Source: Rhodospirillales bacterium
GTDB lineage: Bacteria; Pseudomonadota; Alphaproteobacteria; Acetobacterales; Acetobacteraceae
Reading direction: 5' to 3'
DNA: 64,000 nucleotides
Assembly (NCBI GenBank): GCA_025362815.1
Contig: JANYFG010000066.1
Span: 1 to 64,000 of the forward strand
Of the stretch, positions 30,480 through 42,547 are shown piece after piece. The notes beneath the pieces are model-generated. The model saw nothing but the letters and a program-made list of their open reading frames with translations, did no database searches and was not told the origin of the DNA. Numbering within the stretch: the first letter of the stretch is position 1; each line of letters opens with the position of its first letter. Position numbers and translations under genes: made by a program.

Positions 30480-30509
30480 ACCCGCAAGGGTTGGACCCGC
30501 AAGGGTTGG
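30480..30509. repeat. 15-bp direct duplication upstream of lysC
   Basis: ACCCGCAAGGGTTGG occurs twice in direct succession (30480-30494, 30495-30509). It lies in the 285-bp gap between the divergent lysC and the Tat-exported protein gene. The rest of this gap becomes AT-richer towards 30570-30640 and presumably holds both promoters, but no convincing -35/-10 pair was found. Confidence 0.8.
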
Positions 30510-30702: not shown

Positions 30703-31239
30703 ATGTCGGTCGAGGCCATCACGCCGAAGCATTTGAGCCGCCGCACCCTTGGCGTGGCGCTTATCGGGATGGCTGCGGCCAGCACCAACGCACGGGCCGA
30801 CACTCTGGCCACGCCGCAAGACCGGCCCATCCTCACAATCTCCGGAAAAATACGTAGTTTCAACGCCGGAGACACCGCTGTGTTCGACCGCGCGATGCTG
30901 GAAGCGCTGGGGCTGCGCAGTTTCGAGACTCACACGCCCTGGTACGATCAGCCGGCCCGCTTCGAAGGTCCGCTCATGACCAAGGTGCTGGGAGCGGTGG
31001 GCGCGTTCGGCGACCGTGTGCAGGCCGTGGCCCTCAACGACTACGCCACCGAAATCCCGATTTCCGACTTCGCCCGATTCGGCACGATCCTTGCCATGAA
31101 ACGAGATGACGTCTACCTGAACGTACGCGAAAAAGGACCCCTGTTCGTGGTATACCCCTACGACAGCGACAGCGAGTTGAGACAGCAGAGATATTACGGC
31201 CGATCAGCCTGGCAGGTGGCCCAGCTTATCGTCAAATAA
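30703..31239 (+). CDS. Tat-exported molybdopterin-oxidoreductase-fold protein lacking cysteine
   Basis: The 178-residue protein has a twin-arginine-type signal (SRRTLGVALIGMAAAS, likely cleavage after NARA) and a mature part that resembles a cut-down oxidoreductase molybdopterin-binding (SUOX-fold) domain: LTISGKI, FDRAMLEALGLRSFETHTPW, RFEGPLMTKVLGAVGAFGD, VQAVALNDYATEIPISDF, and YPYDSDSELR near the end. No cysteine is present anywhere, so the thiolate that normally ligates molybdenum is missing. GGAG lies 6 nt before ATG 30703. The stop overlaps the start of the following hybrid kinase (TAATG), which suggests a periplasmic sensor or ligand-binding partner. Fold assignment is by motif reading; function is inferred. 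Confidence 0.75.
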   Translation: MSVEAITPKHLSRRTLGVALIGMAAASTNARADTLATPQDRPILTISGKIRSFNAGDTAVFDRAMLEALGLRSFETHTPWYDQPARFEGPLMTKVLGAVGAFGDRVQAVALNDYATEIPISDFARFGTILAMKRDDVYLNVREKGPLFVVYPYDSDSELRQQRYYGRSAWQVAQLIVK

Positions 31240-33593
31240 TGGCCGGGAGATCATCTATCACGCAGCGGACCTCATCGCCCGAAGCCTCGGTGGAAGCACC
31301 CGCGCGACTTTGGCTGGCCCAACGATCGTTCTCCTTTCTGCTCGGCGCCGTCATGATCCTGATGCTGAGCGCCAGCATCTATACCGCCATCATGATCCGA
31401 GACCGGCAACGCGCCTTCGGTGAAGTCTCGCGCTACAACGTCACCTGGGTCGCAAGCCAGGCCGCCCTCGAAGTGGCACGCCTCGAAAACGCGGTCCGCG
31501 CGCTGGCCATGGCCGGGCCCGGCGCCGACCCCTCTCCCGTCCAGGTCCGCTACGATATCGTGGTGAACCGGATGCAGATCCTGGGCCACGGCGATGCCGG
31601 CGAACTCATCCACTCCCAGGCCGAACTCGGCGGCATCTACCAGTCCCTGCAAACCGCCATGGCCGATGCGGAACGGCTGATGGACCGGCTGGACCAGCCC
31701 GGCAACATCGGCCGGCTTGCTACCATCCTCGCCCCCCTGGGGCTGAAAATGGCCAGGCTCGCCGGGGCCGCGCACGATACCGGCGGCAACCTCGTGTCCG
31801 AGGATCTCGATCAGCTCCGCACGCTTCACAGCGTCTTCTCCGGCATGCTGATGGCGGTGATCGCCTGCTGCACCGGCCTGATCATCGTGCTTGCCTTCAA
31901 CAACCGCATGCTCACGCTGGCCCACCGCAACGTCGGTGCCCTGGTGGTCGACCTGCGCCGCACCGGGCGCGAACTGTCCACCGCCAACGACGCCTCGCGG
32001 ATATCGGCTGACGAAATCCGCCAGCAGAACCGCACCCTCCAGGCCCGCGATCATGCTCTGGCGCTGCAGAACACCCGTTTCGATGCCGCGCTGAACAACA
32101 TGTCCCAGGGCCTGTGCATGGTCGGGCCAGACAACCGGCTGATCGTGTGCAACAAGCAGTTTCGCGCGTTGTTCACCATCGCGCCGCCCCCCACCGGCAT
32201 GCCCGTCGCCAGCCTGTTCGACGATATCATCCAAGCCGGCCGGGCCGATCCGCACATGGTGCGAAGGGTGTGGCAGGAACAGCAGGCGCTGGCCGATCTG
32301 TCCGGCTCCGGCGCTTTCGTCGTCCAGAACGACGAACTCGTGGCCGGCGCGATGAGCGCGCTGGCCGTGGCGCACCAGCCCATGCCGGATGGCGGCTGGG
32401 TCGCCACATACTCCGACATCACCGACCGCAGGCTCGCCGAGGAAGGGCTTGCCCAGGCGCAGAAGATGGAGGCGATCGGCAACCTCACCGGCGGCATGGC
32501 GCATGATTTCAACAATCTCCTCGCCGTCATCTCGCTCAACCTCGAACAGGCGCTGGGCCGCACCGACCAGCCGGACATCGTCCACAAACACGCCTCGCGC
32601 GCCCTTCAGGCCAGCCTGCGCGGCGCCACCCTCATCTCGCAGCTGCTCGCCTTCGCCCGCCGGCAACCGCTGGCACCGCAGCGCATCAGCGTCAACACCT
32701 GGATCGGCGCAATCGCCAACCTGCTCGAGCACATGCTGGGCGACAGCGTCCGCATCAAACTCGACCTCGGGACCGACATCTGGCCGGTGAACGCCGACGC
32801 CACGCGTCTGGAAACCGCCATCGCCAACCTTGCCACCAACGCCCGCGATGCCATGCCGGATGGCGGCACGCTCACCATCGTCACCCGCAACTGCACGCTC
32901 TCGGCGGCCGAGATCCGTCTGCGGCCGGATGCCAAACAAGGCGACTACGTGCTCATCGAGGTGGCAGACACCGGAACCGGCATGCCGCCCCAGGTGGTCA
33001 ACCGCATCTTCGAGCCGTTCTTCACCACCAAGGACGAAGGCCAGGGAACCGGGCTCGGCCTCAGTATGGTGTTCGGTTTCATCCGCCAGTCCGGTGGCCA
33101 TATCGTGGTCGACAGCGTCGCAGGCCAGGGCACCGTCTTCCGTCTGCACCTACCCCGCGCAGACGGCGTGGTGGCACGCGAGCCGGAGGCCACGGGTGCC
33201 ACCGAAATCCGCGGCGGCAGCGAGGCGATCCTGGTGGTCGAGGACAACGAGGCGGTGCGCCTGGTCACCACCGAACTGCTCGCCCAACTCGGCTACAACA
33301 TCATCGGCGTCGACAACCCGCAAGACGCCCTGGCCTTGATCCGGTCCGATCGCGCCATCGATCTCGTGTTCAGCGACGTGGTCATGCCCGGCGGCATGGA
33401 TGGTTTCGACCTGGTCAAGCAGGCCCGCGCCTGCCGGCCGGCCCTGAAGCTGCTGCTGACCTCCGGCTATTCCCAATTCGCGAAATCCTCGGACCAAGGG
33501 CATGTGCCAGGCGAGGCGCCGGTGCGGGTGCTGGGCAAGCCGTTCCGCCAAAGCGAACTGTCGCAGGCGCTGCGCGAAGTGCTCGACGCCTGA
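31239..33593 (+). CDS. Membrane-bound hybrid sensor histidine kinase/response regulator
   Basis: The 784-residue inner-membrane sensor has a first helix at about 30-50 (SFLLGAVMILMLSASIYTA), a helical periplasmic domain of about 150 residues and a second helix at about 203-222 (MAVIACCTGLIIVLAF). A short coiled coil, a PAS domain (ALNNMSQGLCMVGPDNRL), a HisKA domain with H422 (GGMAHDFNNLLAVIS), an HATPase domain (ADTGTGMPPQVVNRIFEPFF, TGLGLSMVFGF) and a C-terminal receiver with D713 (DLVFSDVVMPGG) follow. The start shares one base with the stop of the upstream exported protein. The attached receiver implies a phosphorelay whose output is not encoded nearby; ChpT at 38.9 kb is one conceivable phosphotransferase. 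Confidence 0.93.
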   Translation: MAGRSSITQRTSSPEASVEAPARLWLAQRSFSFLLGAVMILMLSASIYTAIMIRDRQRAFGEVSRYNVTWVASQAALEVARLENAVRALAMAGPGADPSPVQVRYDIVVNRMQILGHGDAGELIHSQAELGGIYQSLQTAMADAERLMDRLDQPGNIGRLATILAPLGLKMARLAGAAHDTGGNLVSEDLDQLRTLHSVFSGMLMAVIACCTGLIIVLAFNNRMLTLAHRNVGALVVDLRRTGRELSTANDASRISADEIRQQNRTLQARDHALALQNTRFDAALNNMSQGLCMVGPDNRLIVCNKQFRALFTIAPPPTGMPVASLFDDIIQAGRADPHMVRRVWQEQQALADLSGSGAFVVQNDELVAGAMSALAVAHQPMPDGGWVATYSDITDRRLAEEGLAQAQKMEAIGNLTGGMAHDFNNLLAVISLNLEQALGRTDQPDIVHKHASRALQASLRGATLISQLLAFARRQPLAPQRISVNTWIGAIANLLEHMLGDSVRIKLDLGTDIWPVNADATRLETAIANLATNARDAMPDGGTLTIVTRNCTLSAAEIRLRPDAKQGDYVLIEVADTGTGMPPQVVNRIFEPFFTTKDEGQGTGLGLSMVFGFIRQSGGHIVVDSVAGQGTVFRLHLPRADGVVAREPEATGATEIRGGSEAILVVEDNEAVRLVTTELLAQLGYNIIGVDNPQDALALIRSDRAIDLVFSDVVMPGGMDGFDLVKQARACRPALKLLLTSGYSQFAKSSDQGHVPGEAPVRVLGKPFRQSELSQALREVLDA

Positions 33594-37666: not shown

Positions 37667-38653
37667 CTATCCGCCCGTCACACTCATATGCCGCGTCACC
37701 GAAGGCGCCGTCTCCCGGCGATCGATCACGAAATCATGACCTTTCGGCTTGCGCGCAATCGCCGCCACGATCGCGGCGTCCAACGCCTCGTCCGACGCCC
37801 CGCCCCGCAGCAACGGCCGGAAATCCGCGGCATCGTCCTGCCCCAGACACATATAGAGCGTGCCGGTGCAGGTCAGTCGCACCCGATTGCAGCTCTCGCA
37901 GAAATTATGCGTCATCGGCGTGATGAACCCAATCCGCCCGCCGGTCTCCGCCACCGTGAAATACCGCGCCGGCCCACCGGTCTGATAATCGGTGTCCACC
38001 AGCGTCCAGGTCTTGCGCAACCGCGCCCGCACCTGCGACAGCGGCAGATACTGATCGGCCCGCTCCCCGTCGATCTCGCCCAGCGGCATCGTCTCGATCA
38101 AACACAGATCGAACCCATGCTCGCCGCACCAGGCCAGCATCCCGTCGAACTGGTCCTCGTTCACGCCCTTCAGCGCCACCGCGTTGATCTTCACCGCAAG
38201 CCCAGCCGCCTTGGCCGCGAAAATCCCGTCCAGCGTCTTCTCGAGCTTGCCCCATCGCGTGATCGAGGCGAACAACGCCGGATCCAACGTGTCCAGGCTC
38301 ACATTCACCCGCCGCACGCCCGCCGCGTGGAGATCGGCGGCAAACCGGGGCAGCTGGCTGCCGTTGCTCGTCAAGGTCAGCTCCGACAGACCGTTGCCGA
38401 TGCGCGCCCCCAGCCCCTGGAACAGGGTCAGCACCCCTCGCCGCACCAGCGGCTCCCCGCCGGTGATACGGATCTTGTCGGTCCCCAGCCGGATGAACGC
38501 GCCGCACAGCCGCGCCATCTCCTCCAGGCTCAGCAGCTCCGGCTTCGGCAGGAACGTCATGTCCTCCGCCATGCAATACACACAGCGAAAATCGCAGCGA
38601 TCCGTCACCGAAACGCGAAGATAGCTGATGGTGCGGCCAAAAGGATCGATCAT
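37667..38653 (-). CDS. moaA: GTP 3',8-cyclase MoaA (molybdopterin synthesis)
   Basis: Radical SAM enzyme that performs the first step of molybdenum cofactor synthesis, with MoaC. The 328-residue protein has the N-terminal 4Fe-4S motif CDFRCVYC after [22 protein letters not shown] for SAM binding, the C-terminal second cluster [18 protein letters not shown], and ends in Gly-Gly. No other moa or moe genes lie nearby. Confidence 0.97.
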
Positions 38654-38947: not shown

Positions 38948-39631
38948 GTGAACATGCGGACCACACCGATGACAACGCAAGAGCCCACCAGCCCAAACCT
39001 CACCCTGGCACTCGCCGGCGCCCTGGCCGAACGGCTGTGCCACGACCTCGCCGGCATCGCGGGCACCGTGGGAAGCGCCCTCGACCTCGCGGCGCAAGAC
39101 CCGGACATGCACGACGAGGCTCTCGACATGGCGCGCGAGGCCGCCACCACGCTGAGCCTGCGGCTACGCCTCCTGCGCGCGGCCTGGAGCGCCGGATCGG
39201 GCGGCCTTGCCCTCGCGGGCGCCGAGCTTCGCGCGCTGGCCATGGGCCTTCCCCTGGGCCGCCGCATGCGCGCCGAACTGCAAGGGCTGGCACCCACCCG
39301 CCGCTTCGGCCCCGGGGCCGCCCGTCTCATCCTCACCCTTCTATTGCTGGCCGCGGAAAGCCTGCACGGCGAAGGCTGCATCGCGCTCGACGAGGCGCCG
39401 GGCGGCAGCCTTCTGCTGTCCATCACAGGCCCCCGCGCCGCCTGGCCCACGGGCCTGATGTCCCTGTTCGCCAGCCCCGAAGAAGCCGCTCTCGCAGCCC
39501 GCGCGTGCAGCCCCAAGACCCTGCTCGCACCGTTGAGCGCGCTGCTCGCCCAAACATCCGGGCTGGCGGTATCGCCGCTGCTCACCCCCACCGGCCATGC
39601 GCCCCCCAAGCTGCGCATCGCAATCGCCTGA
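38948..39631 (+). CDS. chpT: Histidine phosphotransferase ChpT
   Basis: A 227-residue member of the alphaproteobacterial ChpT family. It shuttles phosphate from hybrid kinases such as CckA to the response regulators CtrA and CpdR. The dimerisation/histidine helix reads LAERLCHDLAGIAGTVGSALDL with phospho-accepting H32, and the rest is a degenerate HATPase-like domain (PGAARLILTLLLLAAESL). GTG 38948 has AAGG 6 nt upstream; ATG 38954 is possible. It lies 132 bp upstream of cheA in the same direction. Confidence 0.9.
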   Translation: MNMRTTPMTTQEPTSPNLTLALAGALAERLCHDLAGIAGTVGSALDLAAQDPDMHDEALDMAREAATTLSLRLRLLRAAWSAGSGGLALAGAELRALAMGLPLGRRMRAELQGLAPTRRFGPGAARLILTLLLLAAESLHGEGCIALDEAPGGSLLLSITGPRAAWPTGLMSLFASPEEAALAARACSPKTLLAPLSALLAQTSGLAVSPLLTPTGHAPPKLRIAIA

Positions 39632-39763
39632 AGCCGAGGGCCACAAAAACACCCATCCTCTTCATCCTTTCTTCGTACTCTCCCGTCACATTGCCTCCAT
39701 CGAACCTCACCTCCGCCCGGGCATAGCACCGGGATCACGGCAAACCGGGGCCTGGACCACGCG

Positions 39764-42547
39764 ATGGATGATCTGCTCAGCGATTTTCTCACCGAAACCA
39801 ACGAAAGCCTGGCCGAGGCCGACCTCGCCCTCGTCAAACTGGAGCAGGAGCCGCAGGACGCTCCCACGCTCTCGCTTATTTTCCGGCTCGTGCACACCAT
39901 CAAGGGCACCTGCGGCTTTTTGGGCCTGCCCCGCCTTGAACGGGTGGCCCATGCCGCCGAAAACGTCCTCGGCCGGGTGCGGGACGGCGTTCTGCCCGTC
40001 ACGCCAGACCTCGTCACCGCCATCCTCAGCTCTCTCGACCGCATCAAGCTGATCGTCGCGGGCCTTGCCAGCAACGGCGTGGAACCGGATGGATCGGACG
40101 CGGATCTGATCCTCAATCTCGAGGCCGTCAGCGAAGGCAAAACCCAGCAAGCCCCCGCCACCTCGGTTGCGACGCAGCCCCCCGCGCCGCCCCCCACCGC
40201 GCCGCCCCACACCGCGCCGCCCCACACCGCGCCGAAACCCACCAGCCAGGAGGAAACGCCCTCCGTCCCCGCGGAAGCACCTCCAGAACCACCGCCGCCG
40301 CCCCCTGCCATAGAGATCCCCCCTGCCGCCGAGGCGCAGGCCCCGGAACAGGCCCTCGCCGGCCAGACCATCCGCGTCGGCGTGGACGTGATCGAAAATC
40401 TCATGACCCTGGTCAGCGAGCTGGTCCTCACCCGCAACCAGTTGCTGCAACAGGCCAGATCCCAGGAAAACAGCGGCTTCACCGGCCCCTTGCAGCGCCT
40501 GTCGCACATCACATCGGATCTGCAGGAAGGCGTGATGAAAACGCGCATGCAGCCGATCGGCAACGCCTGGAACAAACTGCCGCGAATCGTCCGCGACCTC
40601 GCGCGCGAGCTCGGCAAAAAGATCGAACTGACCATGCTCGGCGCCGAAACCGAGCTGGACCGTCAGGTGCTCGAACTCATCAAAGACCCGCTCACCCACA
40701 TGGTCCGCAACAGCGGCGACCACGGGCTTGAAACAACCGCGGAACGCCGCGCCGTCGGCAAACCGGAAACCGGGCGCATCACGCTCAACGCGTTCCACGA
40801 AGGCGGCCATATCGTCATCGAAATCGCAGATGACGGGCGCGGCCTCCCAATCGACCGTATCAAGTCCAAGGTTCTCTCCAAAGGCCTGGCCACCGAGGCC
40901 GACCTCGCGGCCATGAGCGACGAAGCCATCCAACGCTTCATCTTCCGTGCCGGCTTCTCCACGGCCGCGGCCGTCACCGCCGTGTCCGGCCGCGGCGTGG
41001 GCATGGATGTCGTCAAAACGAATATCGAGCGGATCGGCGGCACGATCGAACTTAAAAGCCGCCCCGGCGAAGGCACCGTCTTCACCATCAAGATCCCGCT
41101 CACGCTCGCCATCGTCTCCGCCCTCATCGTGCAGGCCGGCGCGGAACGGTTCGCCATTCCGCAGATCAGCGTCGTCGAGTTGGTCCGCGCCCGCGAAGCC
41201 GGACTGGCCGCGGCCAACGATGACCGGGAAACCGTCACCAGCGTGGTGGAGCGCATCAACGGCACTCCCGTCCTGCGGCTGCGAGACAGGCTGCTCCCCC
41301 TCGTCAGCCTGGACGATCTGCTACGGCTGCGCGAGCCAGCCCACCAGCACACCAGCACCGCCGCCCTGGCCGCGGGCAACACCAAGGCAGACGGCACACT
41401 CACCATCATCGTGGCCAAGGTCGGCGCCAGCCATGTCGGCCTCATCGTCGATCGTGTGTTCGACACCGAGGAGATCGTGGTCAAGCCGGTGGCTCCCGTT
41501 TTGCGCCATATCAGCATGTTCAGCGGCAACACCATCCTGGGGGACGGCTCCGTGATCATGATCCTCGACCCCAGCGGAATCGCCCGCGCCAGTGGCATCG
41601 CCGGCGCGTCTGACGGCCGCCACGGTGGCCCCGCCACACCCACAACCCTCACAGGAGAGGCGCACACGGACAAAACCGCCATGCTGCTGTTCCGCGTCGG
41701 CGCTTCCGATATCAAGGCCGTGCCCCTGGGGCTCGTGGCCAGGCTGGAGAACATCGCGCAGGACCGCGTCGAAACCGCGGCCGGCCTTCCCGTCACCCAA
41801 TATCGCGGCAGGCTGATGCGCCTCGTGCCCATGTCCGGCCATCTGGACACCACCAAACCCCACCAGGCGGTACTCGTCTTCACCGACAGCAACACCGGCA
41901 TCGGCGGCGACCGTCGCATGGGCCTGATCGTCGAGGAGATCGTCGATGTCGTCGAAGATACGATGAACATCGAACTCAGCGGGCGCCGCGAAGGCGTGCT
42001 CGGCACCGCCATCATCGCCGGCCGCGCCACCGATGTGATCGACACATCGTTCTGGCTCACCCAGGCCCAGCCCGACTGGTTCGACAAACCCGCCGATGTC
42101 GCGGATGGCGGCAGCCACCGCGCCAGACTTCTGGTGGTTGAGGACAGCGACTTCTTCCGCCAGATGATCGTGCCCGTGCTGCAGGCCGCCGGCTACGAGG
42201 TCATCGGCGTGTCAGACGCAGCTAGGGCGCTCGCGCTGCGCGACAACGGCCAGATGTTCCAGGCCGTCATCTCCGATATCGAGATGCCGGGTATGGACGG
42301 GCTGGGCTTCGTCCGCGCAATCCGCGCACAAGGCGCGTGGTCCAACCTGCCGGTCATTGCCCTCAGCGGCCGCGTGTCCGAACGCGACATCGATCGCGGC
42401 CGAGAGGCCGGCTTTACCGACTATGTGGGCAAATTCTCCCAGGAAGCCCTGCTGGCCAGTCTGCGCCAATGCCTGGCGCAAGGTGTAACCCAAGGCGGTG
42501 CCCATCCCCCCTACCCCGAGGCACCGTCGCTCCGGATGGTCGCCTGA
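39764..42547 (+). CDS. cheA: Hybrid chemotaxis kinase CheA with C-terminal receiver
   Basis: Chemosensory histidine kinase of 927 residues. Order: HPt (P1) with phospho-acceptor H44 (LVHTIKGTCGFLG); a Pro-rich linker at about 128-200 where the CheY-binding P2 domain is normally found; dimerisation P3; HATPase P4 (HMVRNSGDHGLE, DDGRGLPIDRI, GRGVGMDVV); CheW-like P5; a second region from about 640 to 775 that again resembles a CheW domain; and a receiver domain with D838 (VISDIEMPGMDG). The linker contains three 15-bp repeats. First gene of cheA-cheW-cheY-cheB-cheR. Confidence 0.96.
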   Translation: MDDLLSDFLTETNESLAEADLALVKLEQEPQDAPTLSLIFRLVHTIKGTCGFLGLPRLERVAHAAENVLGRVRDGVLPVTPDLVTAILSSLDRIKLIVAGLASNGVEPDGSDADLILNLEAVSEGKTQQAPATSVATQPPAPPPTAPPHTAPPHTAPKPTSQEETPSVPAEAPPEPPPPPPAIEIPPAAEAQAPEQALAGQTIRVGVDVIENLMTLVSELVLTRNQLLQQARSQENSGFTGPLQRLSHITSDLQEGVMKTRMQPIGNAWNKLPRIVRDLARELGKKIELTMLGAETELDRQVLELIKDPLTHMVRNSGDHGLETTAERRAVGKPETGRITLNAFHEGGHIVIEIADDGRGLPIDRIKSKVLSKGLATEADLAAMSDEAIQRFIFRAGFSTAAAVTAVSGRGVGMDVVKTNIERIGGTIELKSRPGEGTVFTIKIPLTLAIVSALIVQAGAERFAIPQISVVELVRAREAGLAAANDDRETVTSVVERINGTPVLRLRDRLLPLVSLDDLLRLREPAHQHTSTAALAAGNTKADGTLTIIVAKVGASHVGLIVDRVFDTEEIVVKPVAPVLRHISMFSGNTILGDGSVIMILDPSGIARASGIAGASDGRHGGPATPTTLTGEAHTDKTAMLLFRVGASDIKAVPLGLVARLENIAQDRVETAAGLPVTQYRGRLMRLVPMSGHLDTTKPHQAVLVFTDSNTGIGGDRRMGLIVEEIVDVVEDTMNIELSGRREGVLGTAIIAGRATDVIDTSFWLTQAQPDWFDKPADVADGGSHRARLLVVEDSDFFRQMIVPVLQAAGYEVIGVSDAARALALRDNGQMFQAVISDIEMPGMDGLGFVRAIRAQGAWSNLPVIALSGRVSERDIDRGREAGFTDYVGKFSQEALLASLRQCLAQGVTQGGAHPPYPEAPSLRMVA
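40186..40230. repeat. Three 15-bp tandem repeats in the cheA linker
   Basis: GCCGCCCCACACCGC occurs at 40201-40215 and 40216-40230, with a one-mismatch copy at 40186-40200. It encodes repeated Pro-Pro-His-Thr-Ala within the P1-P3 linker and keeps the frame. Confidence 0.85.

Follow-up and report, generated by a model that had tools for sequence, protein, structure and literature searches.

A PruR-type protein and a hybrid histidine kinase encoded as a two-gene unit in Acetobacteraceae: a probable pterin-sensing pair of the PruR-DTB kind

What could a small protein resembling a cut-down molybdoenzyme domain, and devoid of cysteine, be doing next to a sensor kinase? Two such genes lie in the window, that is, the whole stretch of 64,000 nucleotides that was analysed. 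Its source is a draft genome with 126 contigs, a total of 3.05 Mb and a completeness of 76%. The first gene (positions 30703..31239, plus strand) encodes 178 amino acids; its ATG at 30703 is preceded by GGAG, and it ends with TAA at 31237-31239. The second gene (31239..33593, plus strand) starts with ATG at 31239, its stop codon ends at 33593, and it encodes a hybrid histidine kinase of 784 amino acids. The stop of the former and the start of the latter overlap by one nucleotide within AAATAATGG. The sequence was re-read, and the coordinates, the length of 178 residues and the overlap given in a preliminary description of this locus hold. The arrangement, a two-gene unit with pruR upstream of a receptor gene, is that of PruR-DTB systems. 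It is more than a chance juxtaposition, as homologues of the first protein with 57-65% identity were found in six of the seven other members of the genus.

The PruR-type protein

The small protein is of the PruR type and has a SUOX-type fold. Among the sequences of solved chains, its closest relatives are the Agrobacterium PruR (7kos, E 4.3e-54) and a further PruR structure, 7rkb (E 2.3e-50), followed by 7kom and 7kp2 (E 5e-19 and 8e-15), the remainder having E of at least 0.7. An alignment of 16 homologues served to build an AlphaFold2 model with a mean pLDDT of 85.5. In the Foldseek comparison the predicted fold agrees with 7kos at a TM-score of 0.94-0.96 by target length, with rmsd of 1.1-1.2 and 61% identity. 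Next come 7rkb and two Vibrio PruR structures; sulfite dehydrogenases and other proteins follow, none of them with E better than 6e-6. The fold match to SUOX-type domains, which the preliminary description had set as a test, was thus found. Its wording of a cut-down SUOX domain is right as regards the fold, but is weakly reflected at the level of the family profile: the score with the Pfam SUOX-type model PF00174 is 15.5 bits, where the cut-off is 24. This miss may be the reason why the protein looked odd at first reading.

The resemblance to YedY and to sulfite oxidases and dehydrogenases lies in the SUOX-type fold (Foldseek E 6e-6 to approximately 3e-3). On the other hand, the window protein is shorter, is paired with a signalling receptor, and contains no cysteine among its 178 residues, as had been noted from the start. 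The cysteine ligand to Mo that defines the molybdoenzymes of the SUOX family is therefore lacking, and the nearest relatives are PruR proteins, in agreement with the initial suggestion that this is not a normal molybdoenzyme. PruR itself is described as having no Mo-ligating cysteine (PMC13259868, section 7). The same section reports that PruR binds small pterins, with tetrahydromonapterin preferred, and that its truncated pocket likely cannot hold Moco.

The pocket residues point in the same direction. Asn112, Tyr114 and Trp170 align with Asn102, Tyr104 and Trp160 of A. tumefaciens PruR, and all three are invariant in the 16 of 16 aligned homologues. The spacing of 56 between the tyrosine and the tryptophan equals that in the PMC13259868 numbering of the A. 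tumefaciens protein. According to that review, Trp160 and Tyr104 are tied to pterin binding, and position 102 is occupied by Asn, or by Asp in some groups. The Agrobacterium PruR (Atu3496; 7kos, 7kou) is thus similar to the window protein in fold, length, the absence of a Mo-ligating cysteine, the Asn, Tyr and Trp residues, and the position as the first of two genes. By analogy, the window protein very likely binds pterins, and the ligand is likely to be a small reduced pterin and not molybdopterin. The part of the first interpretation that is not supported is molybdopterin as the ligand, the closest solved relatives being PruR proteins, which are reported to bind small pterins.

The N-terminus (30703..30798, plus strand) resembles a signal peptide with a twin-arginine-like motif SRRTLG and an end near the junction of ARA and DT, the boundary being set by eye. 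The arginine pair at this position is present in 13 of the 16 aligned homologues by a by-eye count, the exceptions being those of loci L026, L029 and L031. A Tat signal is plausible, and the protein is probably exported.

The kinase and its periplasmic domain

The kinase has two hydrophobic stretches, at approximately residues 29-54 and 196-225 (19-residue windows starting at 29-36 and 196-207), with about 140 residues between them, which fits the two-helix hybrid kinase with a periplasmic domain recognized at first reading. The DcpA-type periplasmic domain and the two candidate transmembrane stretches that enclose it (31323..31913, plus strand) were delineated by hydropathy, hhalign and a helical model. 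The alignment of seven N-termini from the genus with nine rhizobial DcpA-type sequences had a probability of 99.9 and spanned 206 columns with E 2.5e-31, compared with E 0.23-0.76 in three controls with shuffled columns. The helical model of the N-terminal region has mean pLDDT 77.5 and pTM 0.41. Comparison of the N-terminal 231 residues with solved structures by sequence yielded no homologue, the one match having E 0.49. The domain contains the motif WVASQAALE at residues 70-78 (31446..31472, plus strand). It is an instance of WX7E, the motif named in PMC13259868 (section 8).

The cytoplasmic part consists of PAS_7 (residues 285-402; 32091..32444), HisKA with His422 together with HATPase_c (residues 414-641; 32478..33161) and a Response_reg receiver with Asp713 (residues 664-778; 33228..33572), all on the plus strand and all above the Pfam cut-offs. 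No Hpt domain was found in the kinase by the Pfam domain search. The kinase core is closest to PRK13557/CckA-type models, and does not reach the CckA equivalog cut-offs of NCBIfam (384 and 324 bits against 1000).

A DcpA-type periplasmic domain with WX7E joined to a cytoplasmic two-component kinase with PAS and Rec domains is what is expected of a DTB protein. PruR-DTB pairs, some of them with PAS and Rec domains, have already been published (PMC13259868, section 8). The order PAS-HisKA-HATPase-Rec is given there for the Ruegeria pomeroyi DTB protein WP_011045932.1 (section 8, Fig. 5 legend), which by its description also has the DcpA-type domain with WX7E and is encoded downstream of pruR. 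Two differences may be mentioned. The partner of the Agrobacterium PruR, DcpA, is of the GGDEF-EAL type according to PMC13259868, whereas the window partner is a kinase. The DTB cores are generally TorS/BaeS-like in the account of the same review, whereas the window core is nearest to the PRK13557/CckA type. We saw no difference of kind from PruR-DTB systems, the Ruegeria protein being compared by description. Thus the idea of a sensor pair was right, but the kind is already known, and the locus is a well-formed example of the recently described PruR-DTB kind. In the open-access library searched, the review PMC13259868 was the only publication found on pterin sensing by PruR-linked kinases; it cites a primary paper (PNAS 2024).

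Pairing across relatives and the site between lysC and ubiG

PruR homologues were found in 15 of 60 genomes, the source genome included, at 16 places. At all 15 other loci, from 14 relatives, a signalling gene lies directly downstream of pruR. Ten of these genes encode histidine kinases, so that the association of homologues with sensor kinases, also proposed as a test, is indeed observed. Four encode GGDEF-EAL proteins (L023, L024, L028, L030). The remaining one (L020) ends with the contig after the PAS domain and is 58% identical to the window kinase that far. A scan of named genomes produced at least 592 stretches, at least 589 of them confirmed, and the best 80 were analysed; three of these overlap the set of relatives (L055, L056 and L082, corresponding to G001, G007 and G024). 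Among the best 80 of at least 592 loci, profile search assigned the next frame to GGDEF-EAL proteins in 60 cases and to kinases in 18. Of the remaining two, L056 is cut by the end of the contig, and L069 has a GGDEF-EAL frame whose start lies 1.3 kb downstream. This conserved pairing with a signalling receptor, together with the SUOX-type fold of a protein that is not a normal molybdoenzyme, supports the ligand-sensing role suggested in the preliminary description.

The WX7E motif is not strict. The string W-x7-E, sought without alignment in the first 170 residues, is present in 75 of the 80 downstream frames (best 80 of at least 592) and absent from the other five. Among the relatives, Asp replaces Glu in L026 and Phe replaces Trp in L024. 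The latter is a natural variant, a GGDEF-EAL partner with FVASLAPVE (L024:1917-4418).

The two types of partners share their sensory part. The GGDEF-EAL partners of genomes G027 and G024, both from the bacterial family of the window, are respectively 41% identical to the window kinase at residues 49-416 and 35% identical at residues 25-401, and both local alignments stop at or just after the end of the PAS domain. Therefore one sensory half has been joined to two outputs, with PruR upstream of both.

Two distant PruR-linked kinases (L027:6144-8609 and L029:5350-7935) carry one more domain, an Hpt, C-terminal to the receiver, and as judged by their predicted domains they are self-contained relays. 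Genome G057 carries two separate PruR-kinase pairs (L026 and L029). One of its kinases has the Hpt domain; in the other no Hpt was found at E 1e-4, and WX7E is replaced by W-x7-D.

The immediate neighbours of the window pair are the aspartate kinase gene lysC and ubiG. Aspartate kinase, UbiG and MoaA were named from NCBIfam hits that exceed the cut-offs, and the names of some other genes of the block (grxC, comF and similar) were assigned by eye. The early statement that no output regulator is adjacent is thus accurate, ChpT-like and CheA-type genes being situated at 38948-42547. Within the genus, pruR is present in seven of eight genomes, the source genome included, each time beside lysC. Both flanks, lysC and ubiG, are visible in five loci (the window, L017, L018, L019, L021); in L020 and L022 only the lysC flank is seen, as the contig ends there. 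The pair was not found in one sister genome of the genus. We looked for ubiG in 12 relatives and found a match in 11 (none in G009). Each of the 11 has lysC and ubiG side by side in divergent orientation, and the 98-212 bases that separate their aligned ends leave no room for the pair. One of these genomes, G003, belongs to the same genus, and five (G010, G011, G018, G023, G027) carry pruR elsewhere. The simplest reading is that the two genes were gained or lost together. The region between lysC and pruR contains a perfect tandem repeat of 15 nucleotides (ACCCGCAAGGGTTGG twice; window positions 30480-30509).

Mode of action, alternatives and output

The family, the fold, the pocket residues, the pairing, the homologous periplasmic domain and the complete catalytic domains, all of them computed, identify the two genes as a PruR-DTB pair. 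We consider it very likely that in this pair a pterin-bound PruR-type protein switches the kinase. The ligand, the docking and the direction of the signal are inferred by analogy with the PruR-DcpA pair of A. tumefaciens, for which we follow PMC13259868; in the cited sections of that review, neither binding, nor docking, nor phosphotransfer is reported for a DTB kinase. By this analogy, the truncated SUOX-type pocket of the exported protein would accommodate a small pterin, probably in the fully reduced state. The loaded protein would then dock on the kinase encoded by the adjacent gene, at the periplasmic domain that carries WX7E. Docking would alter the state that the second membrane helix and the PAS domain transmit, and as a result the balance between autophosphorylation of His422 and phosphotransfer to Asp713 would shift.

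The pterin is likely to be supplied by a PruA-type reductase whose gene lies in another part of the genome. The E. coli FolM query matches 13 places in the source genome. One of them, the candidate PruA-type reductase G000:C1:44834-45586, contains TGGARRIG and YTVSK, corresponding to the pteridine-reductase signature of TGX3RXG and YX3K described in PMC13259868 (section 5). TGX3RXG is absent from the nine other readable FolM-matching loci, the remaining three of the 13 places having no locus. This candidate passes NF006597, and its best matches among solved structures are FolM (5tgd, E 5.6e-72) and the related 5bt9 (E 8e-72), the next having E 8e-30. Reductase homologues (E at most 1e-35, by score, with the motif unscreened) occur in 14 of 15 PruR-positive and in 34 of 45 PruR-negative genomes. 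Since they are common with or without PruR, the co-occurrence is uninformative as to a coupling of the two in one circuit, and the presence of the reductase is weak support.

A sensor of Moco or molybdopterin, in which the small protein would bind the whole cofactor without a thiolate and report its status to the kinase, would agree with the SUOX-type fold and the weak PF00174 match, and also with the presence of moaA (37667-38653) 4 kb downstream of the kinase. However, moaA was seen near pruR only in L017 and L019, both from the genus of the window, in a block that holds unrelated genes as well, and no moaA match was seen in the stretches fetched around pruR from other genera (L023-L031). 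Moreover, the nearest structures are PruR proteins, whose pocket, as noted above from section 7 of PMC13259868, likely cannot hold Moco, and the pocket residues of the window protein are those common to PruR. We consider this reading highly improbable and have set it aside, as the close solved relatives are described as binding small pterins. An orphaned or degenerate pair, with a molybdoenzyme relic standing beside a kinase that senses through its own periplasmic or PAS domain, is scarcely credible. The missing cysteine and the PAS domain of the kinase would be expected in such a case, but not the conserved pocket residues, nor the pairing kept at 15 other loci with two output types, nor the presence or absence of both genes together between lysC and ubiG.

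The remaining proposal is a specific form of the PruR-DTB reading and does not exclude it. Our preferred guess is that the kinase acts through a separate histidine phosphotransferase, since its last domain is a receiver and the domain search revealed no Hpt. A candidate phosphoryl acceptor is the ChpT-like protein encoded at 38948..39631 on the plus strand (NF046025, E 6.6e-18), 5.4 kb downstream of the kinase. Within the window segment 38948-42547 its gene lies directly upstream of that of a CheA-type protein with Hpt, H-kinase_dim, HATPase, CheW and receiver domains. The pair might thus feed the CckA-ChpT relay and, through it, motility or cell-cycle genes. The kinase-Rec core and the nearby ChpT-like gene recall that relay of Alphaproteobacteria; to our knowledge, CckA has neither a PruR partner nor a DcpA-type domain. 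With the Caulobacter CckA model, which has 33 matches in the source genome, the window core ranks second, and the kinase has no Hpt of its own, unlike the distant ones of L027 and L029. In this genome, nothing but the ChpT-like gene scores above 60 bits with the ChpT model. The block after moaA is kept in the two relatives whose stretches are long enough to show this gene: L017 contains both the ChpT-like and the CheA-type genes, and the L019 stretch ends within the former. On the other hand, the models match rather generally, CckA in 12 and the NCBIfam ChpT model in four of 14 control genomes. The ChpT-like protein scores 64.9 bits where the equivalog cut-off is 225, and PF10090, the Pfam ChpT domain, has no match in the source genome, this protein included. 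Proximity may merely reflect an older gene block that pruR-DTB entered. As the models also match control genomes and the cut-off is missed, the ChpT link is put forward as a hypothesis, and we regard feeding into the CckA-ChpT relay as unlikely. That in these Acetobacteraceae the pterin pair supplies a ChpT-type phosphorelay with a second input seems more doubtful still. In the open-access library searched, no paper on ChpT and CckA in Acetobacteraceae was found. If such an input exists, periplasmic pterin redox state would steer motility or cell-cycle genes and not c-di-GMP. It would also give the DTB branch a defined output; none is stated for the kinase branch of pterin signalling in the cited sections of PMC13259868.

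A cysteine-free molybdopterin-like protein beside a kinase thus becomes an instance of pterin signalling. The genus provides a clean case: the pair occupies the site between lysC and ubiG as one unit, and a sister genome was found without it. In two related genera the same N-terminal sensor is joined to GGDEF-EAL and not to a kinase. As the same sensor is joined to either output, output swapping is open to study within one bacterial family.
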